DNA of 64,000 nucleotides. It comes from Parvicella tangerina. Its GTDB lineage: Bacteria; Bacteroidota; Bacteroidia; Flavobacteriales_D; Parvicellaceae. Under the pieces are notes generated by a model. That model saw only the letters and a list, made by a program, of their open reading frames with translations, was not told the DNA's origin and did no database searches. This document shows positions 1 to 51,829 of this stretch, piece after piece (within the stretch, counting starts at the first letter, position 1; each line of letters opens with the position of its first letter). The DNA is taken from positions 3,544,978 to 3,608,977 of the forward strand of contig NZ_OU015584.1 of the NCBI RefSeq assembly GCF_907165195.1. Direction: 5' to 3'. A program made the position numbers and the translations under genes.

Positions 1-3000
1 CAAGGTTATCATAAACCATGATGCTTCCAGTTGAGTTCATTTCATCATCAATGAAGATGTTTACGATGCCAGAAGATGGATTAGGGTAAATAGATATCAA
101 GCTTGTTGACACATAATCCGATTCATCCTGAGTAGCGAGAATGCCATTTGATGATTTGGGCAGACCATAGTATGGTAGCTTTTCATTGAATGAAAGTTTA
201 TAGACCTCTTGGAGTATCCTGTAAGCTCTGAGGCATGTTTTGTCTTGTTCTGGTTTATAAGCTATGGCTTCTACTTCGGCTTTCAAGGCAGTATCATTTT
301 TTATTGCATAACAGCCTTCGGCTGCTGTGTTTAGTTCAATGAGTAGCTCGTTGAATTTGCAAAAATCTTGATGAAGAGCTGAAGCAATTTTCAATTCATC
401 AATAATGTCTTGTGCTTCTGAGTATTTACCCCTTCCGATAAGGAAAGAAGTTTCGTCACACTTTTTGTAGAATCTACCGTACTGTTTCATTAAAGCATAT
501 GCTGAATCTTCTCCACCAACAATAGTTGTGTCTGTTAGATACTCCTTGATTAGCTCGGTTACCAGCAATTTGGACTCAATCACATAGCCAATAGACTTGT
601 ACTTTTCTCTCACGTTCAATGGTAGTTCATTATTTGCCGCCTCAAGAGAAAAAATTTGATTCTTAATCCCTTTCGGCAAAGACGCTTGATCCACCTCATC
701 GATTACTTTTTTTGAAAGAGGAGCCGAACTTTCCATGATGTTCTTAACAATACCATGAGGTAAATTCAATGTGTTATCCAATTGATCAATCAACCTTTCG
801 TCATTCAAATAAGGAGCTAGAACCATCATTTGATTCTTATAGTTACCAGACGAAATTTGACCATTTTTATATTGATCAATTAAATCTTTAGCCTCCAAAT
901 CAGTATAAGCATAAGTCGACTCGATAGCTTCTCCATCAAATAGACGACTTTCCGCAAGGGATTTCTTGCCTCCTAAAAGAGATTTCTTAGATAAATCAAA
1001 GCGGTTAACAGGACAGCTTGTTGCTGGGTTAAAGGTTGATGATGTTTGAGTTGTCTTTGTATTGTAATTATTTGGGGCTGAATTAATAGTAGGCTGTATC
1101 ACACTTCCTGCTGGGCCATTATTGATTGCATCATAAAAATATTGCGTAAAAAACAAATGTCCTTGTATATTTGGATCTGCTTGCCAAACATTGTAATTCA
1201 TAAACTGACTTCCAGCCGGAGAGGGTGAGGTTGAAAAAGTATTCCCCGCACCGTTCTGAAAACCATTGGTTGCTTGAATACTACTAATACCTCCCAAATC
1301 CCAAGCAACATCGTTTTTATTTGAACCTTCAAAATCGTTGCAGATAATGCGTAGACCACTTGCCTGATCTACAGAGCCATCCGTACCTATATCTACGTTG
1401 TTTAACAGCCCAGCTATTCCGTAATCTAAATTTACGTATCTATTGTTGTAAATTCTGTCTGTAACCGTTGTTACATCAGGGTTATGACCAGCATTACTAT
1501 TTACTACAATAGTGCCAAAAGTATGGTTAGACAACTGTGTATTAAACTCATTATTCTCCACAGAATAACCCGTTGTGTGGTCAAGATACAAACCGTAAGC
1601 ACCATTTGCTAAAGTCAAGTTAATTAGTGGCATTGGTACGAGTGGACCGATGTCATTGAAATTGTTGTTTACACAATAAGATAAATCAGTGTTTTGCAAA
1701 TAAACCCCCATTGAAACATCAGAAAAATCACAATACTTTATGGTTGCTGGAGTACTGCTACTCGATGCAGTGGCATAAACACCTCGATGAAGACCGTTAA
1801 AAGCGCCTCGATCTTTGTTATTGCATGGCCCACCAATTATGACAGGACCATTACACCTGTAAGTCACTTCAAATTGTGTATCTATGCTATTAATTCCACC
1901 CCCCCTTTCGGTATCTCCGTAAACTCCTGTTGTTGTATTGGCAAAATCGCAACCTTTAAAGTAGGTGTTTGAGCTATTTACAATTTCAGCATGCCATGTT
2001 GGATTAGAACCATCTAAGATTTGTGCGGTAGTTAAAAAATCACAATTGGTGAAGTAGTACTTTCTATTGGGGTGGTTGTAAGTGTTAAGGTCAACATCTT
2101 TTATGTTGTTTAAGAAGGTTGAATTACTGACAGAAATCAAACCTCCAGTTGCTCCATAGTTTGGTATTTGTAAAGCAGGGTCATTTTGATCTCCTTCAGC
2201 ATAATGGTTGGTAACCCCGATGTAAGCATTTGAAATTTCACTACTTTGGTACATGGTGAAATAACCATGATTAGCAATAGGTATTGGTGCGACACCATTC
2301 CCACTACCGATAACTCTCACTCCTTGCCACATTAGTCCTTCACAAGATCTAGAGGTTAGTGTTGTTCCATATATTCTTAACCTACCTCCAGGTTCAACAT
2401 TAACTTGTGCAAGTTCTTCAAACCGAAAAGTCATATTTTTAATGACAATATTTGCTCCACTAGGGATGGTTAAATTTCCGTTCATATAAACATCACCTAC
2501 TGCGTTGTTAAAAGGATTGTCTCCAGGCTCCCAAGTATGTGTACCTGTTAGAGCAGTAAAACCTCCTGAATATCCTCCTGATACTCTATCGCAACAAGGG
2601 TAAATATCATCCTTGATTGCTAGCCAATCCTCACCATCAATTTGGTCAGGTAGGACGTAAGCAATTTTAAAATCCGAGGTGTTGTTAGGCTCATAACCAT
2701 TGGCGTAAACATATCCAGGAAGGATTACTGCATTTGGAACGAAAGGTGAACTCGGATTATTTGGATCGTCTAATGACCCTAATTTTCCGTCTGCAGCAAA
2801 GTATAGCTTGCCATTTGCTGCAAGTTCAATAAAGCCAGATCTAAAGTCTTGCTCATTGGGCACAGTTAAATGATTAACAGTTACGTTAGCTACATCAATG
2901 TATCTGATAGCAGGTTCGTTGGGGTAGTCTGAATTGATGGTAGTAGTAACGTAAATGTAATTGCCATCCTCACTAAATTCGAGTCCAGTTAAATAAAGAT

Positions 3001-25332: not shown

Positions 25333-26361
25333 CTAATACCCTTGTTTATCTCTTACTTCGTAAATTCTTTCAATAATATCAACCACTTTTAAACCTTCTA
25401 GAGCATTAGTAGTTGCGGTAGTTCTGCCCTTCAAGGTATCCACAACATTCTCAATGATATAATGATGATTTGCTGCAGAACCCTTGTAGGGTCCATAATC
25501 ATTCGGGGGATTCGAGGCTTCAAGCTCAGGCATGTCATAACCTTCAACATTGCAGCACTCTACTTCATTCATATACTGCCCACCTATCTTAACGCTTCCT
25601 TTTGAACCAACAATGGTCATACTGCTCTCAAGATTTTTGTTCCAAACAGCAGTACTATAATTTAGACATCCCATTCCACCATCAACAAAATCAAAACTCA
25701 CCAATCCACTATCTTCAAAATCAGTAGAACCCTTGTGCATGAAATCTTTGAACTTTCCCTGAATATTTGAGATATCTCCAAACAACCAATACATGATATC
25801 AATGAAGTGTGAAAATTGTGTAAACAGTGTTCCTCCATCTAAATCGGAGGTTCCTTTCCATCCACCCTTTTTGTAATACCTCTCATCTCGGTTCCAGTAA
25901 CAATTAAGCTGAACCATTAAAATATCGCCTAATCTCTTATTTCTCATCATATCTTTAATCCAGACTGATGGCGGAGAATATCTGTTTTGCATGACGCAAA
26001 AAACATGCTTATTCGCTTTAAGCGCCTTATAGATCACACGTTCACACTTTGCCTTTGAAAGCCCCATAGGTTTTTCAACTACAACGTGATAATTCTCTTC
26101 AAGCGCTTTTATCGACTGATCAGAGTGCAATCCGTTAGGCGTACAAATATTTATGACATCAATATCTAGATTTGCCGCAATCAGTTCATCAATCGACTGG
26201 AAAAAAACTGCATTAAAATCTTCAATACCGAGCTCTTCTTTTGGTTTGACATCGCATAACGCTACTAACTCAGACTCCTCATTTCTTCTGATCATCTCTG
26301 CGTGTCGCTTTCCAATATGACCGCAACCTATTACTGCGAACTTTACCTTTCCTTCTATCAT
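25333..26361 (-). CDS. Gfo/Idh/MocA oxidoreductase, WbpB/WlbA-like (UDP-GlcNAcA 3-dehydrogenase)
   Basis: A 342-residue NAD-dependent oxidoreductase. It shows the Rossmann motif FAVIGCGHIGKRHAEM, the family EKP motif (VVVEKPMGLS), and a C-terminal catalytic region with GGTLFTQFSHFIDIMYWLFG. WbpB/WlbA oxidises C3 of UDP-GlcNAcA ahead of amination by WbpE. The assignment rests on the flanking WbpA-, WbpD- and WbpE-type genes. The ATG at 26361 overlaps the wbpD stop (TGATG); a GTG one codon upstream is an alternative. Confidence 0.87.
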   Translation of the reverse strand: MIEGKVKFAVIGCGHIGKRHAEMIRRNEESELVALCDVKPKEELGIEDFNAVFFQSIDELIAANLDIDVINICTPNGLHSDQSIKALEENYHVVVEKPMGLSKAKCERVIYKALKANKHVFCVMQNRYSPPSVWIKDMMRNKRLGDILMVQLNCYWNRDERYYKKGGWKGTSDLDGGTLFTQFSHFIDIMYWLFGDISNIQGKFKDFMHKGSTDFEDSGLVSFDFVDGGMGCLNYSTAVWNKNLESSMTIVGSKGSVKIGGQYMNEVECCNVEGYDMPELEASNPPNDYGPYKGSAANHHYIIENVVDTLKGRTTATTNALEGLKVVDIIERIYEVRDKQGY

Positions 26362-26936
26362 CACTTTATTCTAGTTACACTTTCATTATTCAAGCTATAC
26401 ACTTGCTTACTCTCCGGACAAACCGCCTGACCACGCTCGTCAAAATTAAGACGGTGACCAAATTCGCTCACCCACCCAATTTGCTTACTAGGGTTACCCA
26501 CTACTAAGGCAAATGGCTTAACATCCTTCGTTACCACACTACCTGCACCTATTAGCGCATAAGCACCAATATTATTTCCACACACGATAGTAGCATTAGC
26601 ACCTATAGAAGCTCCCTTTCCAACTAGCGTCTTTGCATATTGTCCTCTTCGATTCACGGCACTTCTGGGGTTAATGACATTTGTAAAAACCATAGAAGGG
26701 CCCAGAAAAACATCATCCTCACACACAACTCCAGTATATATCGACACATTGTTTTGAACTTTGACATTAGTTCCTAAGACAACCTCTGGTGAAACCACTA
26801 CATTCTGACCCAAATTGCATCGTTCGCCAATTTTACAATTACTCATAACATGCGAAAAATGCCATATTTTGGTTCCATCACCAATGTCGCATCCTTCATC
26901 GATTACTGCGGTTTCATGTGCAAAATATCCAGTCAT
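26361..26936 (-). CDS. Hexapeptide-repeat N-acetyltransferase, WbpD/WlbB-like
   Basis: A 191-residue left-handed beta-helix acyltransferase. The hexapeptide pattern [IV]-G-x-x-x-x runs through most of it (EGCDIGDGTKIWHFSHV, IGERCNLGQNVVV, VGKGASIGANATIV, IGAYALIGAGSVV). A loop with FTNVINPRSAVNRRGQY is characteristic of the WbpD group, which transfers acetyl to the 3-amino group of UDP-GlcNAc3NA, giving UDP-2,3-diacetamido-2,3-dideoxyglucuronate. It overlaps both neighbours by 1 nt (stop/start TGATG junctions), indicating translational coupling. Confidence 0.9.
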   Translation of the reverse strand: MTGYFAHETAVIDEGCDIGDGTKIWHFSHVMSNCKIGERCNLGQNVVVSPEVVLGTNVKVQNNVSIYTGVVCEDDVFLGPSMVFTNVINPRSAVNRRGQYAKTLVGKGASIGANATIVCGNNIGAYALIGAGSVVTKDVKPFALVVGNPSKQIGWVSEFGHRLNFDERGQAVCPESKQVYSLNNESVTRIK

Positions 26937-27922
26937 TACTTTACTATAAACTTATCAAAGTTATTGTGTTCTTTCTTATATAGTTCTTCCTCGGGCAATG
27001 ACTTAAAATAGTCATAGGTTATTTTTAAGCCTTCTTGTCTAGAGACCTGAGGTTCCCAACTCAGTATCTTTTTTGCACGATCAATATTCGGCTGACGTTG
27101 CATTGGGTCATCTTGAGGAAGTGGTTGGTAGATTACTTTCTGATCCGTACCCGTTAACTTAATGATCTCCTCTGCAAAGTCGGCAATGCTAATTTCATCA
27201 GGATTTCCAATGTTCATCGGTTCAACATAGTCAGACTTCAGTAGTCTGTAAATACCTTCTATCAAATCATCCACGTAACAAAACGATCGTGTCTGGGAGC
27301 CATCACCAAAAACTGTGAGATCCTCTCCTCTTAATGCTTGCCCAATAAATGCCGGCAAAACCCTTCCATCGTTAAGCCTCATTCTCGGGCCGTAAGTATT
27401 AAAAATGCGCACAATCCTTGTTTCAACACCGTGGAAACGATGGTAGGCCATGGTGATTGCTTCTTGAAACCTTTTTGCCTCATCGTAAACACCTCTTGGA
27501 CCAATTGGGTTTACATTTCCCCAGTAATCTTCTGTTTGTGGATGAACCAGAGGGTCTCCGTATACTTCAGACGTACTAGCGATTAACATTCTTGCCCCTT
27601 TTGCTTTGGCTAAGCCCAACAAATTATGCGTACCCAGGGATCCAACCTTCAAGGTTTGAATAGGTATCTTCAAATAATCAATTGGACTTGCAGGAGAAGC
27701 AAAATGAAGGATATAGTCGAGTTCCCCTGGAACATGAACATAATTCGAGACATCATGATTTACAAAGTGAAAATTCTCTTCCTTAAATAAATGCTCAATG
27801 TTCTCAATCCTTCCAGTGATCAGGTTATCCATTCCAATAACGTAGCAATCCTCCTTGATAAAACGATCACACAAATGAGACCCAAGAAAACCTGCTGCAC
27901 CTGTTATTAAAACTCTTTTCAT
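26936..27922 (-). CDS. UDP-glucuronate decarboxylase (UDP-xylose synthase)
   Basis: A 328-residue extended SDR. Motifs are [31 protein letters not shown], the catalytic [15 protein letters not shown], and [12 protein letters not shown] (YxxxK). These, with [14 protein letters not shown], are diagnostic of UXS enzymes making UDP-xylose from UDP-GlcA. It lies 3 nt downstream of the UDP-glucose dehydrogenase that makes its substrate. Confidence 0.92.
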
Positions 27923-27925
27923 GAA

Positions 27926-29242
27926 TTAGTCATTTGTAATTGTTCGTCTTCCGATGCTATTATAATAATAACCTTTATTTCTCATATCTACCAAATCGTA
28001 CAAATTTCTTCCATCAAAGATCACCTTCGCTTTAAGCTTATCGCTGATCCGGTCAAAATCAGGTGTTCTAAACACCTGCCACTCCGTAGCTATAAGAAGA
28101 GCATCTGCATCTTCTAACGCTTCATATTGGTTACTTGCATATTTAATCTTATCTCCCAAAAGAGCTTTTACGTTATCCATTGCTTCTGGATCAAATGCTG
28201 TGATCTCTGCTCCTGCTTTGGTCAACTCATCAATCATGTAAAGTGCAGGTGCTTCTCTAATATCATCTGTATCTGGTTTAAAAGCAAGGCCCCAAAGTGC
28301 CAGTTTCTTTCCTTTTAAATCCGAACCAAAATACGCCTTCACCTTTTCTGCCAACACATACTTTTGTTTGTGGTTAACATCCATGACAGAGTTAATTATA
28401 GAAAAATCGTATGCTGTTTCTTTGCCCGACTTTGCCAATGCCTGAACATCTTTAGGAAAACACGAGCCACCATATCCAATACCTGGAAATAAGAATCTAT
28501 TACCAATTCGGGTATCCGTTCCCATTCCTCTTCTCACGTCATCAACATTCGCACCAATCAGCTCACAATAATTGGCTATTTCATTCATAAAGGTAATCTT
28601 AGTCGCTAAGAATGAATTCGCAGCATACTTAGTCAGTTCAGCCGACTTCTCATCCATAAAAATGATGGGGTTCCCTTGTCTAACAAAAGGCTTATACAAC
28701 TCTTCCATCACTTTTCTTGCCTTGGCAGATTCAGTACCTACTACCACTCTGTCTGGCTTCAAAAAGTCATCGACTGCAAAGCCTTCTCGCAAAAACTCAG
28801 GATTTGAAACTACGTCAAAATCCACATTCGCATGCTTCGCAATCGTTTCTTTCACTTTATCTGCAGTTCCAACTGGAACAGTACTTTTATCTACAATGAC
28901 CTTATACTCCTTGATCATTTTACCCAATTCCTCAGCAACACCAAGAATGTAGGACAAATCAGCGGAACCATCTTCTCCGGGAGGTGTTGGAAGCGCTAAA
29001 AAAATGATCTGTGCCTGCTCAACTGCTTCCTCTAAATTTGTAGTAAAGCTTAGTCTGTTTTGTTTAATATTTCTCTCAAAAATAACATCCAGATGAGGTT
29101 CATAAATTGGCACCACACCGGCTCTCATTTTTTCTACCTTTTCTATGTCAATGTCCACACAAATTACGTCATTTCCTGTTTCCGCAAAACATGTACCCGT
29201 AACCAATCCAACATAACCTGTACCAACTACTGCAATTTTCAT
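27926..29242 (-). CDS. ugd: UDP-glucose 6-dehydrogenase
   Basis: A 438-residue enzyme oxidising UDP-glucose to UDP-glucuronate with two NAD+. It opens MKIAVVGTGYVGLVTGTCFA and carries YEPHLDVIFERN, STVPVGTADKV, and the catalytic-Cys motif GYGGSCFPKDVQAL. The FPKD form is typical of UDP-glucose rather than UDP-HexNAc dehydrogenases. The C-terminal GLAFKPDTDDIREAPA is the UDP-binding domain. It sits 3 nt after the WbpE-like gene and 3 nt before UXS. Confidence 0.93.
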   Translation of the reverse strand: MKIAVVGTGYVGLVTGTCFAETGNDVICVDIDIEKVEKMRAGVVPIYEPHLDVIFERNIKQNRLSFTTNLEEAVEQAQIIFLALPTPPGEDGSADLSYILGVAEELGKMIKEYKVIVDKSTVPVGTADKVKETIAKHANVDFDVVSNPEFLREGFAVDDFLKPDRVVVGTESAKARKVMEELYKPFVRQGNPIIFMDEKSAELTKYAANSFLATKITFMNEIANYCELIGANVDDVRRGMGTDTRIGNRFLFPGIGYGGSCFPKDVQALAKSGKETAYDFSIINSVMDVNHKQKYVLAEKVKAYFGSDLKGKKLALWGLAFKPDTDDIREAPALYMIDELTKAGAEITAFDPEAMDNVKALLGDKIKYASNQYEALEDADALLIATEWQVFRTPDFDRISDKLKAKVIFDGRNLYDLVDMRNKGYYYNSIGRRTITND

Positions 29243-29245
29243 CTT

Positions 29246-30373
29246 TTATCTCTTTAAAAATTCTTTGATACCATTAATAACTACATCCTGACCTTCTTTA
29301 GTCATCTCCGTATGAATTGGAAGTGAGATAACTGTATTACACAACTCCATAGTGACAGGATAATCTTCATCTGTAAACCTCTCCTGCTTGTATGCCTTTT
29401 GATGGTGCAAAGGAATGGGATAATAGATCATACACGGAATTTCTCGTTCATTCAAATACGCTTTCAATTCATCTCTATTTACACCCTTGCATCTGAGCGT
29501 ATATTGGTGAAACACATGTGTGGAGTTCGATGATGTTTCAGGCACAATAATTTCCTCACAATCCAGTTGCTCATTGTAATACATAGCTGCTTGATTTCTT
29601 GCCGCATTGTATTCATCTAAATGTCTCAGTTTAATTCTCAATATGGCCGCCTGAATACTATCCAATCTGGAGTTTACACCTACCTCATCATGAACATATT
29701 GTTTACTCTGTCCATGGTTAGCCACTTGACGAATCTTAGTTGCTAGTTCATCATCGTTGCAGAATATAGCCCCTCCATCTCCAAAGCAACCTAAGTTCTT
29801 CGAAGGAAAAAAGGAAGTACAACCAATCGTTCCAATTGTTCCCGCCTTCTTAGTCGTTCCATCCGAAAAAGTATAGTCTGCACCAATTGCCTGAGCCGTA
29901 TCTTCAATGACGTATAAATCATGTTTTTGCGCAACCTCCATAATCTTTTCCATATTGGCGCACTGGCCAAACAAATGAACTGGCACGATAGCCTTAGTTC
30001 TAGGAGTAATCGCAGCTTCTAATGCATCCACATCAATATTGAACGTAACCGGGTCTACATCTACCAAAACTGGTGTCAACTTCAGCAGTGCGATAACTTC
30101 TGCTGTAGCCACATAAGTGAAAGAAGCCGTAATCACTTCATCTCCCGGCTGCAAGCCAAGAGCCATCATTGAAACCTGCAAAGCATCTGTCCCGTTTGCA
30201 CAGGGAATGACATGTTTAACACCCAAATACTCCTCTAACTCTCTTTGAAATGCCTTAACTTCCGGTCCATTGATATAAGCAGATGAACGTATAACGTTGA
30301 TCACAGCCTCATCAATTTCCCTTTGAATTTTATTGTACTGACCAATAAGGTCAACCATGTGTAATTTGCTCAT
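29246..30373 (-). CDS. DegT/DnrJ/EryC1/StrS aminotransferase, WbpE/WlbC (PorR)-like
   Basis: A 375-residue PLP-dependent sugar aminotransferase. It has the DLIGQYNKIQREID start, PCANGTDALQVSMMALGL, the PLP-contacting Asp (VIEDTAQAIGADY) and the Schiff-base Lys in TSFFPSKNLGCFGDGGA. Together with RLDSIQAAILRIKL these fit the WbpE/WlbC group that uses glutamate to aminate the 3-keto sugar. P. gingivalis PorR, needed for A-LPS anchoring of T9SS cargo, belongs to this family. First gene of the eleven-gene run, with a promoter 20 nt upstream. Confidence 0.9.
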   Translation of the reverse strand: MSKLHMVDLIGQYNKIQREIDEAVINVIRSSAYINGPEVKAFQRELEEYLGVKHVIPCANGTDALQVSMMALGLQPGDEVITASFTYVATAEVIALLKLTPVLVDVDPVTFNIDVDALEAAITPRTKAIVPVHLFGQCANMEKIMEVAQKHDLYVIEDTAQAIGADYTFSDGTTKKAGTIGTIGCTSFFPSKNLGCFGDGGAIFCNDDELATKIRQVANHGQSKQYVHDEVGVNSRLDSIQAAILRIKLRHLDEYNAARNQAAMYYNEQLDCEEIIVPETSSNSTHVFHQYTLRCKGVNRDELKAYLNEREIPCMIYYPIPLHHQKAYKQERFTDEDYPVTMELCNTVISLPIHTEMTKEGQDVVINGIKEFLKR

Positions 30374-30392
30374 TCTTTATACGATAAGATTG

Positions 30393-30400
30393 CGAATATA
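30393..30400 (-). promoter_or_regulatory. -7 box of the wbpE-to-miaE operon
   Basis: Minus-strand TATATTCG fits TAnnTTCG and ends 19 nt before the ATG at 30373. A TTC trinucleotide about 20 bp upstream is a one-mismatch -33 element. No comparably good promoter was found at the short junctions inside the run. Confidence 0.5.
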
Positions 30401-30526
30401 CTACTTATCTCTAAAAATCTGAATGATTTACATCACAGGTAATGTTTTCTTGACATTCGTTGAATATCGACTAACGAAAGAAAATTTTTTCGAACCTTTA
30501 TCAATTGAGTTCCGTATGCTCCATTT

Positions 30527-31888
30527 ATGAGAAGTTTGATTCTATTATTTATTCTCTTTTGTGCTGCCCCACAATTTTTAGGGCAGATAAAGTTTGACAG
30601 TAACCCTTTTGATCTAGGTATCATCACTGCAGCTGGATCCGATTATGTGGATATCCCTGTAAAAAACGAAGGAAACGAGAAGATCTTTATCTTTAGAATT
30701 GATGCCGACAAGCGATTTCAAATTCGCTACAGTTCTAAAACGCTCCTACCAGACAGCACTGTTTATATTCGCATTCTTTTCACTCCGGAGAAAAAAGGAA
30801 TCATCAATGAGAAATTACCCGTCCATTTTAGTCATTTATCAGATCCTGTAGATTTAAAACTTAATGGTTTTTGCGAAGAAGTTCCAAAATCTAATGCTAT
30901 TACCTGTCCTAGCTTCCAACAACAAAACATTAACACCTCTCTGGAACACGAGTTCACAGTTAAAGTAATTGAAGAATCCACAGGCAAGCCTATTGAAGAT
31001 GCACATGTGGAATTCATTCAAAATGGTGTTAAAACGGAATCCGTTACCACTAATAAAAAAGGAACTCATACTCAGAAGCAAAAACTCGGCTACTACTATT
31101 TTATCGCAAGTCATGAAGATTACAACTCTAATGAACTCGGCACTTATATTAACCGTAAAAATAATTTGGTGATCATTCCGCTCAGCAGAAAAGAAGTTAC
31201 AACAATTATTCCTCCTCAAGAAGAAGTTGATGAAGTGGAAACTGAAGAAATTATCGTTCACACCATATCGGAAGAAGACACTGCGAATAATTCTCCAAAT
31301 TACGTTGAACAGTACCCAGACTTCCCCTTAGCGGATTATAAGCCGAACAATATTGTATTTTTGGTTGATGTCTCTTCTTCGATGAATTTTGCTGGTAAAA
31401 TAGACTTGTTAAAAGCGAGCATGATTGAACTCACAAAGATCTTAAGGCCCATTGATAAGATTACACTGGTTGCTTACGCCAGCAGTGCTGAAGTCATCAT
31501 GGAAACAACTTCTGTAGAGAATACGGACACCTTGATCGACATCATTCAAAACTTGAAACCCAAGGGAATGACGGCTGGAGGAGAAGGCATGAAACTAGCC
31601 TACTCTAAAGCTTGTAATGCGATGATTCCAGATGGAAACAATCAAATCATTATGGCCACGGATGGCGTTTTCAATATGGGTGAAGAAAATGTCAATAAAC
31701 TTGCCAGAAAATACCATAAGAAGGGGGTTACCGTTTCGGTTATTGGCATTAAAAACAGAGAGTTTCATGAAGAGAGCATGCGCCAACTATCAGAAGATGG
31801 TGGAGGAAATTACACGAATATTCAAAACTATTCTCAAGCTCAAGAAACTTTAATAGAGGAGATCAAAACTCAATCAAGAAGAAATTAA
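30527..31888 (+). CDS. Secreted von Willebrand factor A domain protein
   Basis: A 453-residue exported protein. The signal peptide is residues 1-20 (ending FLGQ). About 22-110 is an immunoglobulin-like/DUF1573-type domain (FDLGIITAAG, IPVKNEGNEKIFI). About 140-220 is a carboxypeptidase-regulatory-like domain (VIEESTGKPIEDAHVEF). About 275-445 is a vWA domain with a complete MIDAS: VFLVDVSSSMNFAGK, the Thr of GMTAGG, and IMATDGVFNMG. It probably binds a partner via a metal ion in the periplasm or at the cell surface. It opens a same-strand cluster with LemA-like and TPM genes. Confidence 0.85.
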   Translation: MRSLILLFILFCAAPQFLGQIKFDSNPFDLGIITAAGSDYVDIPVKNEGNEKIFIFRIDADKRFQIRYSSKTLLPDSTVYIRILFTPEKKGIINEKLPVHFSHLSDPVDLKLNGFCEEVPKSNAITCPSFQQQNINTSLEHEFTVKVIEESTGKPIEDAHVEFIQNGVKTESVTTNKKGTHTQKQKLGYYYFIASHEDYNSNELGTYINRKNNLVIIPLSRKEVTTIIPPQEEVDEVETEEIIVHTISEEDTANNSPNYVEQYPDFPLADYKPNNIVFLVDVSSSMNFAGKIDLLKASMIELTKILRPIDKITLVAYASSAEVIMETTSVENTDTLIDIIQNLKPKGMTAGGEGMKLAYSKACNAMIPDGNNQIIMATDGVFNMGEENVNKLARKYHKKGVTVSVIGIKNREFHEESMRQLSEDGGGNYTNIQNYSQAQETLIEEIKTQSRRN

Positions 31889-31932
31889 GTCTCACCTATT
31901 TTTCTTAGTATTGTAATGTCTAAACAACAACT

Positions 31933-32850
31933 ATGGATACGTTTGATGAAATTATCCAGAAGCACATGCTCAGTGTTAAGCAAATGGGCATTCTGGAAGG
32001 TGAGATAGACATTTCAAAAGAAGAACTCAAAGAGATCAGTCAAGATCTTGGAATGACAGCAGACGACTGGGAGCAGGTGATGAAAGAAGCCGATGAAAGG
32101 CTTGCTCTTGCACAATCTCATATGCAGCATAAGAGTTATCGAGAATGTTTAAAAACTGCGCAAGATGCCCTATTACTTAACCCTTATATTCTTGGAGCGA
32201 GAGGTCTTCAGGCCAAGTCTTACTTGTTATTAGCCATCAACGAAGAGGATGATTCGTACCTCGATCAAGCTAAATCACAGGCTCAAATTACGCTGGACAA
32301 AGAACCGAAGGACAAAAATGCATTAGAGGTCATGGCTACAGTAAGTAGTAAAACGCGTTTGTCCAATATGGATAAAAAGAAAAACCCAAACAAAAAGCTA
32401 GCACTGATATTGGGGGTTCTTATTGTAGCATTGATCGGCTTTGTAGGCATATATTTTATCGCTGGCAGCTCCGCTGAAGAACAAAGCAATAGCAAGTTGG
32501 AAAACGTAGAAAAACAACTAGAAAGTGCTTTTGAAAAGCAAGAAGCTCTGGTCCCAAAAGTAAAAGCCCTGCTATCTGAATCAGATGAAGATCAGAAAAA
32601 ACGTGATGAACTGGACTACGTTCTCTCAGAGTTGGATGATGACCTTTCTCTGAAAGACCGCTACGATCTCCAGGTTCAACTAGGTGGAATTTTATCCGAA
32701 ATCATTTACAGCAAGAGCATGAATACGGATTCAAAAACGTTGGATGATCTTCGGGTTCTCCTTGAAGGTGCGGAGAATAGGATAAAAACGGAACGCAAGC
32801 ACTATAACGATGCCATTACCACCAACGGACTTAAAACTGAAAAACTATAG
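31933..32850 (+). CDS. TPR-like / LemA-like membrane protein
   Basis: A 305-residue protein with no signal peptide. The N-terminal cytoplasmic part (about 1-145) is helical and TPR-like (AQSHMQHKSYRECLKTAQDA, YILGARGLQAKSYLLLA). One membrane segment lies at about 152-176 (LALILGVLIVALIGFVGIYF). The C-terminal part (about 185-300) carries the LemA signature, with LVPKVKALL and the diagnostic ending LEGAENRIKTERKHYNDAI. LemA genes are repeatedly found beside TPM-domain genes, and two TPM genes follow immediately, which supports the reading. Joining a TPR sensor to a LemA-like domain through one membrane helix is not the standard LemA layout. Confidence 0.72.
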   Translation: MDTFDEIIQKHMLSVKQMGILEGEIDISKEELKEISQDLGMTADDWEQVMKEADERLALAQSHMQHKSYRECLKTAQDALLLNPYILGARGLQAKSYLLLAINEEDDSYLDQAKSQAQITLDKEPKDKNALEVMATVSSKTRLSNMDKKKNPNKKLALILGVLIVALIGFVGIYFIAGSSAEEQSNSKLENVEKQLESAFEKQEALVPKVKALLSESDEDQKKRDELDYVLSELDDDLSLKDRYDLQVQLGGILSEIIYSKSMNTDSKTLDDLRVLLEGAENRIKTERKHYNDAITTNGLKTEKL

Positions 32851-32856
32851 CCCGTG

Positions 32857-33360
32857 ATGATAAGAGCCTTTATCGGAATAATACTCTTAATATTTAATCT
32901 AAGTTTCTTTGGACAAATCTATCTTACTGTAAATGAAGTTCCGAAACCACACGAGTGTAATACCGTATTTGTCTCTGACCCGGAAGGCTTTATTGATGCT
33001 AACTCTGAAGCAAGGATAAATAATATGCTTAACTATATAAGTGATGAATACGATTTCGAAGTGGCCGTTGTTGTTTTAAATTCAATTGACAAAAAAGACG
33101 CTTTGGATTTTGCAACGGACCTCGGAAACCATTGGAATATAGGAAATGGCGAGAAAGGCATCGTCTTACTAGTCGTAATCTCAGACAAAAATATGGCGAT
33201 TGCAACAGGTTATGTCTCTGAAAAATACATTTCAGATGAAAAAACCAAACAAATACAAGAAGAGATCATCATACCTTATTTCAAAAATGGACAATACTCC
33301 AGAGGTATTTACCATGGTGTTGTTGAACTTCAAGAGATAATTAGTCACATTAATTACTAA
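32857..33360 (+). CDS. Secreted TPM-domain protein (short)
   Basis: A 167-residue protein with signal peptide MIRAFIGIILLIFNLSFFGQ. The remainder is one TPM (TLP18.3/Psb32/MOLO-1) domain: VSDPEGFIDANSEARINNML, FEVAVVVLNSI, ALDFATDLGNHWNIGNGEKGI and IATGYVSEKYISDE. No C-terminal membrane segment, so it should be periplasmic. The ATG at 32857 is used; a GTG one codon earlier is possible. It is a close paralog of the next gene's N-terminal domain. Confidence 0.87.
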   Translation: MIRAFIGIILLIFNLSFFGQIYLTVNEVPKPHECNTVFVSDPEGFIDANSEARINNMLNYISDEYDFEVAVVVLNSIDKKDALDFATDLGNHWNIGNGEKGIVLLVVISDKNMAIATGYVSEKYISDEKTKQIQEEIIIPYFKNGQYSRGIYHGVVELQEIISHINY

Positions 33361-33365
33361 TCACT

Positions 33366-34901
33366 ATGAAAAAATTCAAGCTATTAACACTTTTTCTTCT
33401 TATCTACCTAACTAATGCAGCACAAACCTATTACTCACCCGAAGAAATACCAGACCCAAAAGAATATGGTGACGGTTTTGTTAGCGACCCAGACGGATTT
33501 ATCTCATCCACCGATGAAGATTACCTAAACGATATCATCAAAAACATTCAAGAAGAAAAAGGTTTTGAAGTGGCTGTAGTGGTGGTCAACTCTATCGACA
33601 ATAAGGCTGTTCTACCTTTTGCTACGGATCTTGGTAATCTATGGGGAGTAGGAAAGGGAGATCGAGGTATTGTTATTTTGGCGGCAATTTCAGATCGGAA
33701 TCTAGCTATTGCAACGGGATATGAAACGGAACAATTTATTCCAGATTTGGTTACACAAGAAATTCAGCAAGAAGAAATCATTCCTTATTTTAAGCTTGAG
33801 GATTACGGACAAGGATTAATTACTGGCCTGGAGGTGATAGAAGCTATCGTGCTGGGTGAAGATGTCCCCGATTATGTAGAAGAAGCTCAGCAGAAACAAA
33901 AAAACGTAAAAATCTGGGAGTATATAGCTATGGGGGTTGGTGGACTATTAATCCTTCTGACCATACTGGTAAGTCCAAAACTCAAAACAGTAATTACCAA
34001 TGCTATTATTCTTGTTGCGGCAGTGGTTGTGAGCCTTATTGCCTATTTCGTTTTCCTAAAAGAAAGTTACACCGCATCCGTTATTTTTGACGGGTCTGTC
34101 ATTTTAGGCTTTATTGCCATAGCCGTCAACGCGTTCATTGTAGTTAAAAATGAAACGAGTGCAATCTGGCCTTATGCTGTCTTGATCTCTTGTGTCGTAG
34201 GCGTTCCACTGACTGGACTTTATCTTTATGGTTATACCGCTATTGTTTTCTTCTACTTATCTGGCGCAGGAATAATTTTTGGTATGTTCTTGCTCACTTA
34301 TCTTATCACCTTGTTCCAGAAAGATCCTTACCATAAGTTTCACACGATCAAGGTTTTTAAATTAGATGTTTTTGCCTACGTCTTCCCATTTCCAATGTAC
34401 GTGGTTGATTTGTTTGTAGAAAACCAATTGGAATCTTGGAGAAACCGAGTAAGATATAGCAAAAAAACAGGTTTAGAAATGCATAAACTTGACGAAGAAA
34501 AGGATAACAAATATCTCGAAAAAGGACAGGTTGCAGAAGAAAAAGTAAAATCCGTTGACTATGACGTTTGGGTTTCAGGAGAACCAGAAGACATTCTCAT
34601 TCTAAAGTACACCACTTGGTTTAGTAAATACAGCACTTGCAGTAAGTGTAAATATAAAACCTGGTATTTAGTGTATGACAAAACAATTTCAGCTGCAACC
34701 TACTCTTCTTCAGGAACGGGAGAAAAGAAAAGGGCTTGTTCTCACTGCGGACATCAACGAATCACCCGATATACCATACCAAGAAAAACTCCACCGAGTA
34801 GCAGTTCTTCAAGCAGTGGTGGATACAGTTCCAGCTCTTCAAGCGGAGGCTCGTGGGGAGGAGGAAGCTTTGGAGGAGGAGGATCTTCAAGTAGTTGGTA
34901 A
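33366..34901 (+). CDS. TPM-domain membrane protein with zinc ribbon and Ser/Gly tail (YgcG type)
   Basis: A 511-residue protein. The signal peptide ends about residue 19 (TNAAQ). A TPM domain covers about 25-170 (VSDPDGFISSTDEDYL, FATDLGNLWGVGKGDRGI, IATGYETEQFI). About 180-330 holds several membrane spans (IAMGVGGLLILLTILV, LISCVVGVPLTGLYLYGYTA). A four-Cys zinc-ribbon-like module follows at about 422-460 (CSKCKYK, CSHCGHQ). The C-terminus is a Ser-then-Gly/Ser-rich tail ending GGGGSSSSW. TPM plus Gly/Ser tail is the YgcG arrangement that travels with LemA. An envelope quality-control or stress role is inferred. Confidence 0.85.
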   Translation: MKKFKLLTLFLLIYLTNAAQTYYSPEEIPDPKEYGDGFVSDPDGFISSTDEDYLNDIIKNIQEEKGFEVAVVVVNSIDNKAVLPFATDLGNLWGVGKGDRGIVILAAISDRNLAIATGYETEQFIPDLVTQEIQQEEIIPYFKLEDYGQGLITGLEVIEAIVLGEDVPDYVEEAQQKQKNVKIWEYIAMGVGGLLILLTILVSPKLKTVITNAIILVAAVVVSLIAYFVFLKESYTASVIFDGSVILGFIAIAVNAFIVVKNETSAIWPYAVLISCVVGVPLTGLYLYGYTAIVFFYLSGAGIIFGMFLLTYLITLFQKDPYHKFHTIKVFKLDVFAYVFPFPMYVVDLFVENQLESWRNRVRYSKKTGLEMHKLDEEKDNKYLEKGQVAEEKVKSVDYDVWVSGEPEDILILKYTTWFSKYSTCSKCKYKTWYLVYDKTISAATYSSSGTGEKKRACSHCGHQRITRYTIPRKTPPSSSSSSSGGYSSSSSSGGSWGGGSFGGGGSSSSW

Positions 34902-34913
34902 TAAAATTAATTA

Positions 34914-35270
34914 TTGAAAAAACTAATATTCATATTATTAGTAGCTAGTTTTTGTGGCTATGGTCAGAACGACTCTTTACAAAAGTTAGTTTTGGAGGGA
35001 CATTACCAAGGTGTGAACATTTATATCCAAAACCCTTTCTCTTCAAGTGGGAACTCATTTTGCGTAAAAAAAGTAACGATGAATGATAGCACTATAAATG
35101 TTACACTCAATGCATCTGCCTTTGAAATAAAGCTGTCAGAGTTGAATCTAGAAACAGGTGATTCGGTTCGAATAGAAATTTTACATCAAACAGATTGTTT
35201 ACCCAAAGCTATTTATAATCCTCCTCCAAAACAGCATGTAGAATTTCTAAACATTGAAGTTGTTGACTAA
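34914..35270 (+). CDS. Small secreted protein of unknown function
   Basis: A 118-residue protein using TTG as start (no ATG is placed to include the signal peptide MKKLIFILLVASFCGYGQ). The mature part is beta-rich (GVNIYIQNPFSSSGNSFCVK, VRIEILHQTDC) with two Cys. Small single-domain exported proteins of this make are common in Bacteroidota; no family recognised. It sits 12 nt after the TPM gene and overlaps the next gene by up to 17 nt, so it belongs to the same transcript. Confidence 0.65.
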   Translation: MKKLIFILLVASFCGYGQNDSLQKLVLEGHYQGVNIYIQNPFSSSGNSFCVKKVTMNDSTINVTLNASAFEIKLSELNLETGDSVRIEILHQTDCLPKAIYNPPPKQHVEFLNIEVVD

Positions 35271-36468
35271 AATTGCCATCATAGGAGGAGGAGCTGGAGG
35301 ATTTTTCACAGCTATTAATACAGCTGAAAAGCATTCAGATTACGACATTACGATCTTCGAAAAGGGAAAAAATGTTCTAGGCAAAGTAAAAGTAAGTGGA
35401 GGTGGAAGGTGTAATGTTACTCACGCTTGCTTCGAACCTAAAGAGCTGGTAAAATTCTATCCCCGAGGAACCAAAGAGCTACTAGGACCGTTTCACTCGT
35501 TCATGACAGGCGATACCATGGAATGGTTTGAAAAACGAGGAGTTGCACTGAAGATCGAAGAAGACAACCGAGTCTTTCCCGTTTCTGATGACTCACAAAG
35601 TATTATTGATTGCCTCCAAGAGGAAATTAGAAGATTGGGAATCAAGGTGAAGACACAAAGCACTGTTACTGATATCACTCCACTTGAAAAAGGATGGTCA
35701 ATATCAGTAAATGGCACTGAAGAAAAGTTTGATAAAGTAGTTATTGCGACAGGGGGAAATAGTCAGTCGGTATGGAGTGAGTTAGAGAAATTGGGCTACA
35801 AAATTATTGAACCCATACCTTCTTTATTCACTTTCAACACCAAAGACACACGATTTAGAAACTTGAGTGGATTAGTCGTTAAAGATGCTTCTGTTAAGAT
35901 CTCGGGAACAAAGTTTTTAGAGCAAGGGCCCGTTTTAATTACACACTGGGGATTGAGTGGTCCGGGTATACTTAAACTTTCCTCTGTTGGCGCTAGACAT
36001 TTACATGAAAAGAATTACCAATTCCAAATTCAGGTAGACTGGGCATTTTCTTTCGACAAAGAAACAGTAGAGGGCACTTTTAAATCTCAAAGAAGTTCTA
36101 ATCCCAAAAAGACCATTCACAATTCCCCGCTCTTCGACATCCCAAAACGATTCTGGCATTCGCTACTTCAGTTCTGCCAGATCTCAGATCAAAAAATATG
36201 GGCGGAACTAGGTAAGAAAGAGAAAAACAAGCTAACTGAAGCCATCAAAAATTCGACAATTAGCATCCACGGAAAGAGCACGAATAAAGAAGAATTTGTG
36301 ACATGTGGTGGTGTTGATCTTAAACAAATCAACTTCACTAAATTTGAAAGTAAGCTTCATCCAAACTTATTCTTTGTAGGTGAAGTATTGGACATCGATG
36401 CGTTAACGGGTGGATTTAATTTTCAGGCGGCCTGGACAGGTGGATGGGTGGTCGCTCAAAATATCTAG
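35254..36468 (+). CDS. BaiN/HI0933-family flavoprotein (FAD-dependent oxidoreductase)
   Basis: A protein of about 404 residues with an N-terminal FAD-binding Rossmann motif (KIAIIGGGAGGFFTAI), the family motif KVSGGGRCNVTHA, a second FAD contact (VVIATGG), and the C-terminal FFVGEVLDIDALTGGFNFQAAWTGG signature of the HI0933/BaiN group. Substrates of most members are unknown. The start is uncertain: in-frame TTG codons lie at 35254, 35260 and 35263 and no ATG precedes the Rossmann motif, so initiation from TTG within the upstream gene's end is likely. Confidence 0.87.
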   Translation: MKLLTKIAIIGGGAGGFFTAINTAEKHSDYDITIFEKGKNVLGKVKVSGGGRCNVTHACFEPKELVKFYPRGTKELLGPFHSFMTGDTMEWFEKRGVALKIEEDNRVFPVSDDSQSIIDCLQEEIRRLGIKVKTQSTVTDITPLEKGWSISVNGTEEKFDKVVIATGGNSQSVWSELEKLGYKIIEPIPSLFTFNTKDTRFRNLSGLVVKDASVKISGTKFLEQGPVLITHWGLSGPGILKLSSVGARHLHEKNYQFQIQVDWAFSFDKETVEGTFKSQRSSNPKKTIHNSPLFDIPKRFWHSLLQFCQISDQKIWAELGKKEKNKLTEAIKNSTISIHGKSTNKEEFVTCGGVDLKQINFTKFESKLHPNLFFVGEVLDIDALTGGFNFQAAWTGGWVVAQNI

Positions 36469-51427: not shown

Positions 51428-51430
51428 GAA

Positions 51431-51829
51431 GGTGGAGCCGGAGGGGTTCGAACCCTCGTCCAAACAAGGAACGATTAAGCTTTCTACATACTTAGTTTGC
51501 AATTGGTTTTCGATCATAGCCTGACCACAAACAGCCTAACTATGACTTAGCTTCTTAAATTTCGTATCAGCCCCGAAGCAAGACCTCAACTAGTTCAGAC
51601 CAACGATACCCATTGCTAAAGACCGCTGAACGAGTAGTCAGAAGCTGGGCAACTTGTCGGGCTATCTTATAGCCTCGATTAAGCGTAATTACATCTAGTA
51701 ATTAGGCAGCAAGTGCGTAGTTGTTTTCTCCGTTTATAGAGATGAGAATAGGGATTTACGAGTCACACTCTCAACACTCGGTATGCTTACATAACCATTT
51801 CTCTTGCCGTCAAATCCAAAGTCGGCCCC
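51431..51829 (-). ncRNA. ssrA: Transfer-messenger RNA (tmRNA)
   Basis: This RNA rescues stalled ribosomes. The 5' end (minus strand from 51829) begins GGGGCCGACTTTGGATTTGA and continues with the tRNA-like D-arm element. The 3' end contains the T-arm GAGGGTTCGAACCCC and an acceptor strand CGGCTCC that pairs with the 5' GGGGCCG. The discriminator A is at 51433; after ACC the genome has T, so CCA is completed enzymatically. The reading frame at 51731-51702 encodes GENNYALAA and a TAA stop, the tag expected in Bacteroidota. Length of about 399 nt is normal. Confidence 0.97.

Follow-up and report, generated by a model that had tools for sequence, protein, structure and literature searches.

What do four same-strand open reading frames (ORFs) in the genome of Parvicella tangerina encode, and do they make up a single unit? 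The genes lie in a 64,000-nucleotide stretch of contig NZ_OU015584.1 (positions 3,544,978 to 3,608,977), here called the window, of a genome that is a single contig of 3.98 Mb. In order, they encode a secreted vWA protein, a protein in which TPR-like helices are joined through one membrane helix to a LemA domain (TPR-LemA), a small exported TPM protein, and a membrane TPM protein with a zinc-ribbon-like domain (TPM-ZnR). The initial annotation saw in them a possible envelope surveillance module, and its positions, strand, and description of all four genes agree with the ORF list and Pfam. Its interpretation stands in part: the fusion is real, recurrent, and linked to TPM, but the four-gene set and the vWA partner are not supported. 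The locus is a version of the known LemA-TPM operon with a TPR domain fused to LemA, in which the conserved unit, judging from gene order, is two genes (TPR-LemA and TPM), not four.

Descent is what places the window TPR-LemA among LemA-domain proteins, as a divergent one; on its own it scores below the curated cut-off of PF04011 (26.2 bits). Its three congener orthologues, with 51–56% identity to it, all exceed that cut-off (33.1, 27.9, and 26.4 bits). Across the 20 fusion loci 13 proteins exceed it and six fall short, and that of genome G669 is not among the matches listed. At E<=0.01, PF04011 is matched by 19/19 aligned fusion proteins. With a profile of 20 orthologous sequences, 2etd, the crystal structure of Thermotoga LemA, is recovered at 8.4e-19, while the front part of the profile finds TPR proteins, such as Cns1 at 2.5e-5. 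The predicted structure, made from a 19-row alignment, has a mean predicted local distance difference test score (pLDDT) of 85.7 and a predicted template modelling score of 0.48. Its top structural match is again 2etd, with Z 13.4 and a root mean square deviation (rmsd) of 2.4 over 126/141 residues of model positions 180–305, so that the C-terminal fold that had been proposed is the one predicted, a LemA four-helix bundle in both model and profile. TPR helical pairs are present in the model at about 48–152, where the matches include 1na3 (rmsd 1.7 over 86 residues, Z 11.6) and numerous further TPR chains, among them structures of MamA. By sequence the TPR part of the window protein is below the Pfam cut-offs (TPR_14, 16.0 versus 23.5 bits), but the fusion in genome G779 passes TPR_14 with 30.5 bits, and TPR_2 is matched at E<=0.01 by 10/19 fusion members. 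When both domains of the model were searched together with Foldseek, nothing reached E<=0.001 and the 50 rows listed were mostly TPR chains; a phmmer search of the PDB with the window protein likewise gave no useful match.

The LemA signature described at the C terminus is indeed present, although the homology is wider than this and, in an alignment with a canonical LemA from another genus of the same family, spans from the membrane helix through the last long helix. The window protein shares residues E278, G279, E281, N282, R283, I284, and N292 with two other fusions and one canonical LemA. These fit the LemA signature E-G-x-E-N-R-I ... N, which lies ahead of and within the last long helix. 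The membrane helix has a lysine-rich flank towards the N terminus, which supports an orientation with the N terminus in and the C terminus out, the TPR domain being inside and LemA outside. Sequence and predicted structure thus support a protein that spans the membrane once and links the cytoplasm with the outside, and the bridging role suggested initially stands as a predicted topology.

Full-length TPR-LemA, defined as a listed match aligning from model position 5 or lower, is present in 20/299 genomes of the order, in two families and six genera among the matches listed. Four of these are from the genus itself and sixteen are from five genera of a second family. When the window protein alone was used as query of the genome contigs no relatives were found; the alignment as query found 19 loci. 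Five named fusion loci beyond the 20 (L125, L127, L130, L134, L139) were also identified; the named fusion loci are from Crocinitomix, Fluviicola, Crocinitomicaceae, and other Flavobacteriales, and are mostly metagenome-derived. Crocinitomix catalasitica ATCC 23190 (L126) has the TPR-LemA and TPM pair. All 20 fusion loci have TPM as the next gene downstream, in the same orientation and in several cases with overlapping ORFs, and the same holds for 5/5 of the further named loci. The 20 fusion genomes have 25 TPM matches at E<=1e-5, of which 24 lie at the fusion locus and one, in G494, lies elsewhere. In the window genome, the two window TPM genes are the only TPM matches and TPR-LemA is the only LemA match at E<=0.001.

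A profile built from four sequences matches 176/395 genomes of the class at E<=1e-5, but nearly all the rows listed align over the LemA part, as far as position 300 or so of the model, and are ordinary LemA proteins. In a tree of 66 LemA domains, 17/17 of the TPR-LemA rows used are on one side of a single branch, including that of G779, which is labelled as of the same phylum and not of the same class. The support for this branch is 100/95, and it is present in 100% of 200 bootstrap trees. TPR-LemA may therefore have a single origin, although long branches and an unknown root stand in the way of proof. That the fusion is a TPM-linked LemA, as had been supposed, is upheld by both the adjacency and the tree.

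The relationship to the known operon can be seen at 38 canonical LemA loci, which are the best-scoring matches of the class and order scans and not a random sample. A TPM ORF is within 1.5 kb of LemA in 32/38, and 31 of those 32 have two TPM ORFs. As in the window and at 20/20 fusion loci, LemA is followed directly by TPM on the same strand; LemA has an N-terminal membrane helix, and the larger TPM is exported and membrane-bound, in one example (L009) also ending in a Gly/Ser-rich tail with Trp. The fusion loci differ in the TPR domain ahead of the membrane helix, in a shortened LemA tail, in the small TPM without signal peptide that is not found in the fusion lineage, and in a membrane TPM with a zinc ribbon and extra hydrophobic segments, where the canonical larger TPM has one membrane segment. 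Separate LemA genes are present in many of the fusion genomes. At ten of these loci, read from nine genomes, an M48-like peptidase is beside LemA in 8/10 (L156–L163), one peptidase being confirmed by Pfam (8.3e-34) and the others identified by eye, and TPM is beside none. These LemA proteins share the N-terminal membrane helix and occur in several of the same genomes, but have no TPR and no TPM, and since one kind of LemA has peptidase neighbours and the other TPM neighbours, the LemA copies appear to have separate partners.

The conserved partner, TPM-ZnR, has a TPM domain at residues 39–160 (Pfam 9e-29, 100.5 bits versus a cut-off of 22.1), a signal-peptide-like N terminus (judged by eye), six hydrophobic segments, four cysteines (C425, C428, C458, C461) in a zinc-ribbon-like domain, and a Gly/Ser-rich tail (34824–34901) whose final residue is Trp, much as the initial annotation described it. 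This terminal Trp is invariant across 18 aligned membrane TPM proteins, and the last residues of the tail are drawn as a strand by AlphaFold. The zinc-ribbon domain is present three or four times in some genomes of the class (such as G052, G253, and G196), and several of these copies are in frames of 250–310 amino acids (aa). In the draft contig of G026 (L011 6102–7628) the membrane TPM gene is split, with the zinc-ribbon part in broken frames, through decay or assembly error. In the congener G028, a Band_7/SPFH gene (L012 8769–9689; PF01145, 3.6e-26) follows TPM-ZnR. This neighbourhood resembles the company of band-7 and TPM reported for PspA operons in PMC11237479.

The small TPM protein also carries a clear TPM domain (Pfam 8e-31, 107.1 bits, same cut-off) and a hydrophobic N terminus like a signal peptide, as expected of the soluble exported protein it had been taken for. 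The "paired TPM" are another matter. Of the four genomes analysed from the genus, the window genome alone has the small exported TPM; it is absent from the fusion locus of the three congeners, which have one TPM match per genome (two of these assemblies being 74% and 82% complete). It shares 52% identity over the TPM domain with the next gene, whose row is also the nearest to it by path in the TPM tree. In that tree the small TPM falls in a six-row set (96/97) made up of five rows from its own genus and the first TPM domain of L116, the L116 row being very long-branched and unsure in its placement, and the order inside the set being unresolved. The small TPM is therefore probably a duplicate, made within the genus, of the neighbouring TPM domain, and the two do not correspond to the canonical pair of a TPM without signal peptide and a membrane TPM: the window protein has its hydrophobic N terminus and groups with the membrane TPMs of the genus. 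Other doublings of TPM are present in G629 (two tandem full-length copies), in G494 (a second TPM gene at the locus), and in G564 (two TPM domains in one protein).

The TPR front domain is not restricted to LemA. In G123, G404, G688, G704, G777, and G853 (the last with short or broken frames) the same front domain and membrane helix precede a different C-terminal part with no recognised LemA (Table 1), and Pfam found no family over cut-off in L046 or L047. These sequences suggest that the TPR front domain is a portable cytoplasmic adaptor, joined to different external domains.

Table 1. Genes and protein parts of the Parvicella tangerina locus, and other proteins with the TPR front domain
Feature	Position	Strand	Basis or remark
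Ig-like (immunoglobulin-like) / vWA protein, secreted, 453 aa	30527-31888	+	Pfam; beside the fusion only here and in one congener; outside the conserved module
TPR-TM-LemA fusion (TM, membrane helix), 305 aa	31933-32850	+	Pfam, profile search, predicted structure
TPR-LemA, N-terminal helices	residues 4-38
TPR-LemA, TPR-like helices	residues 43-149		predicted cytoplasmic
TPR-LemA, membrane helix	residues about 153-176		single; hydrophobic stretch 158-176
TPR-LemA, four-helix LemA bundle	residues 182-297		predicted external
Small exported TPM-only protein, 168 aa	32854-33360	+	Pfam, hydrophobic N terminus, TPM tree
TPM-ZnR protein, 511 aa	33366-34901	+	Pfam; conserved partner of TPR-LemA
Non-LemA protein with TPR front domain and membrane helix	L046 3310-4638		other families of the phylum
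Non-LemA protein with TPR front domain and membrane helix	L047 5895-7280		other families of the phylum
Non-LemA protein with TPR front domain and membrane helix	L151 4604-5998		other families of the phylum
Non-LemA protein with TPR front domain and membrane helix	L152 4260-5618		other families of the phylum
Non-LemA protein with TPR front domain and membrane helix	L153 3910-5271		other families of the phylum
Non-LemA protein with TPR front domain and membrane helix	L154 3381-3977		other families of the phylum

What the pair might do can be approached through other members of the two families. In PMC4902198, a 2016 paper, the magnetosome protein MamQ is termed the sole LemA member tied to a known process; it is required for proper magnetosome membranes and is proposed to be a hub that organises other membrane proteins. 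It takes part in the same membrane-building process as the TPR protein MamA, although these are two separate proteins as opposed to one fusion, and the likeness is an analogy only, a relation to magnetosomes being neither shown nor expected. TPM with the phage-shock protein PspA is proposed in PMC11237479 to be chaperone-like in the assembly of membrane-linked complexes, against a phosphatase view. In YdjH-PspA the TPM domain is likewise at the membrane beside an assembly factor, but the neighbour is PspA and not LemA. Psb32/TLP18.3, of photosystem II repair, has its TPM domain at the membrane beside assembly or repair factors; the two window TPM proteins both hit the NCBIfam Psb32 model at about 2e-10, with roughly 41 bits, far under its cut-off of 160. 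Both lemA and a TPM gene are up in a Flavobacterium columnare sppA deletion, according to PMC13236525.

A two-sided scaffold is consistent with these proposals. TPR-LemA would cross the inner membrane a single time, with its four-helix LemA bundle docking on the outer side with the TPM domain of the membrane-bound TPM-ZnR, and its TPR domain binding a cytoplasmic client or partner on the inner side. Together the two proteins might support the assembly, repair, or turnover of inner-membrane protein complexes, with a MamQ-like hub role for the one and the role of a chaperone-like assembly factor for the other, both carried over from what has been proposed for other family members. The small TPM would then be a surplus TPM domain, and the vWA gene a neighbour by chance. 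The architecture, the fold, the conserved adjacency, and the position on one side of the LemA tree are supported by sequence and prediction. The scaffold as a whole, with its contact, client binding, and assembly role, is about evenly poised between being right and being wrong.

Several observations weigh against this two-sided scaffold. LemA is the best Pfam match of the window protein, but at 19.2 bits (21.1 in another scan) is sub-threshold, and the LemA C-terminal tail is absent, the match ending at profile position 110 to 119 of 149. In addition, Z values near 13 can be common among helical bundles, according to the structural comparison tool's own warning. It could be argued from the score and this warning that the likeness to LemA is that of a generic helical bundle and that the adjacency of TPM is coincidence. 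The LemA fold call is kept despite the warning because the sequence profile agrees, with its match to 2etd. Further, 13/20 fusion loci are over the Pfam cut-off, the tail is partly kept in L045 and complete in L150, the G779 fusion has a complete LemA match (134.7 bits, profile 1–149), and TPM is adjacent at every one of the 20 loci. The idea of a generic bundle is thus already largely refuted and can be given almost no credence. The fusion is also rare and patchy, being found in 2/395 genomes of the class, 20/299 of the order, and 2/395 of the phylum (the window genome being counted in the class and phylum sets, and G779 being the second in the latter). The zinc-ribbon domain of TPM-ZnR is present in 17/395 class genomes, of which just G000 and G229 showed full-length TPR-LemA among the matches listed; the zinc-ribbon TPM is thus older or wider than the fusion. 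The side of the membrane on which the zinc ribbon lies is ambiguous, since the number of hydrophobic segments after the signal peptide is even in TPM-ZnR (six within the genus and two within the second family), and the model (mean pLDDT 67.3), weak across the membrane segments, does not fix it. The roles as hub and in assembly, moreover, derive by analogy from other family members, and the main published alternative for TPM is phosphatase or ATPase activity. Under this main rival, TPM-ZnR would be an enzyme, a phosphatase or nucleotidase, and TPR-LemA its regulatory anchor, with the TPR domain sensing the cytoplasmic state and switching the external TPM activity. Paper titles describe TPM domains as acid phosphatase and as ATPase/ADPase, PMC11237479 sets out the idea as a competing hypothesis, and both window TPM domains score far over the family cut-off, but the same source favours assembly over phosphatase, and the enzymatic reading appears unlikely.

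Two further explanations differ in the genes that they count as part of the unit. The TPR domain might have replaced a cytoplasmic small TPM that was lost in the fusion lineage. Canonical operons have a small TPM without signal peptide, its domain beginning by residue 7 in 27/30, and no such TPM was found at E<=1e-5 in the 20 fusion genomes, some of which are incomplete (nearly all TPM matches being at the fusion locus, with the off-locus TPM of G494 unread). In 21/23 of the TPM proteins read there a hydrophobic segment precedes the domain by threshold, and the window TPM-ZnR and L117 are signal-peptide-like by eye. In G779, however, TPR-LemA is followed by a 149-aa TPM without signal peptide and two exported TPMs, so both coexist and the TPR domain is an addition there, not a replacement. 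A subunit swap as a general rule is contradicted by this genome, though attractive within the lineage, and must be considered quite doubtful. The other explanation is the four-gene envelope surveillance module first suggested, with the vWA protein as a metal-dependent adhesion partner and surveillance as one among several possible functions. The vWA protein itself is as it was described, with PF00092 at residues 275–440 (9e-18) and an intact metal ion-dependent adhesion site (MIDAS), DVSSS at residue 281 fitting its DxSxS motif. It has an N-terminal Ig-like domain of HYDIN type (33.3 bits versus a cut-off of 25.5), and there is also a weak carboxypeptidase-regulatory-like region. Its gene is 44 bp upstream of TPR-LemA on the same strand, and it is directly upstream of the fusion in the congener G027 as well. 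These are, however, the only 2/20 loci where vWA adjoins the fusion, although both halves of the vWA protein are matched in each of the 20 fusion genomes, by a single stretch in 12 and by two adjoining stretches in 8, and in 18 genomes the match lies away from the fusion. In the other two congeners the ORFs upstream look, by eye, like GroEL and an acyltransferase. The vWA protein is rejected as a module partner on this adjacency, nothing was found that ties it to the module, and the exact set of four genes is present in the window alone, so that the surveillance module is very improbable.

Of the remaining features of the window, a divergent set of sugar-nucleotide and surface polysaccharide genes (25333–30373, minus strand) is directly upstream, consisting of a DegT aminotransferase, a dehydrogenase of the UDP-glucose type, an epimerase, and a Gfo/Idh/MocA oxidoreductase. 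A transfer-messenger RNA gene (51430–51829, minus strand) encodes the tag GENNYALAA. A scan of 30000–35600 gave 15 sigma-70-type promoter-like sites against 14.0 expected, which is chance and is uninformative on transcription in this phylum, and 1 terminator-like site against 3.6 expected.

The kinds of part and the operon were already known. What is novel is the TPR-LemA fusion, its spread over two families and a distant genome, and its zinc-ribbon TPM partner; a literature search found the protein described in no title or abstract among the matches listed, although this is weak evidence as its coverage of subscription papers is thin. LemA and TPM are widespread and their joint function is poorly understood, and the fusion gives a new handle on the role of the pair at the membrane. 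It fixes the likely topology and adds a cytoplasmic protein-binding domain beside TPM at every locus read, which turns the question into a binding experiment. It is possible, though somewhat unlikely, that TPR-LemA is a two-sided clamp of the inner membrane, in which the portable cytoplasmic adaptor, also present on other external domains, hands clients such as half-assembled membrane complexes to the external LemA-TPM complex. If this were true, use of the TPR domain as bait would name the cytoplasmic partner of the LemA-TPM family.

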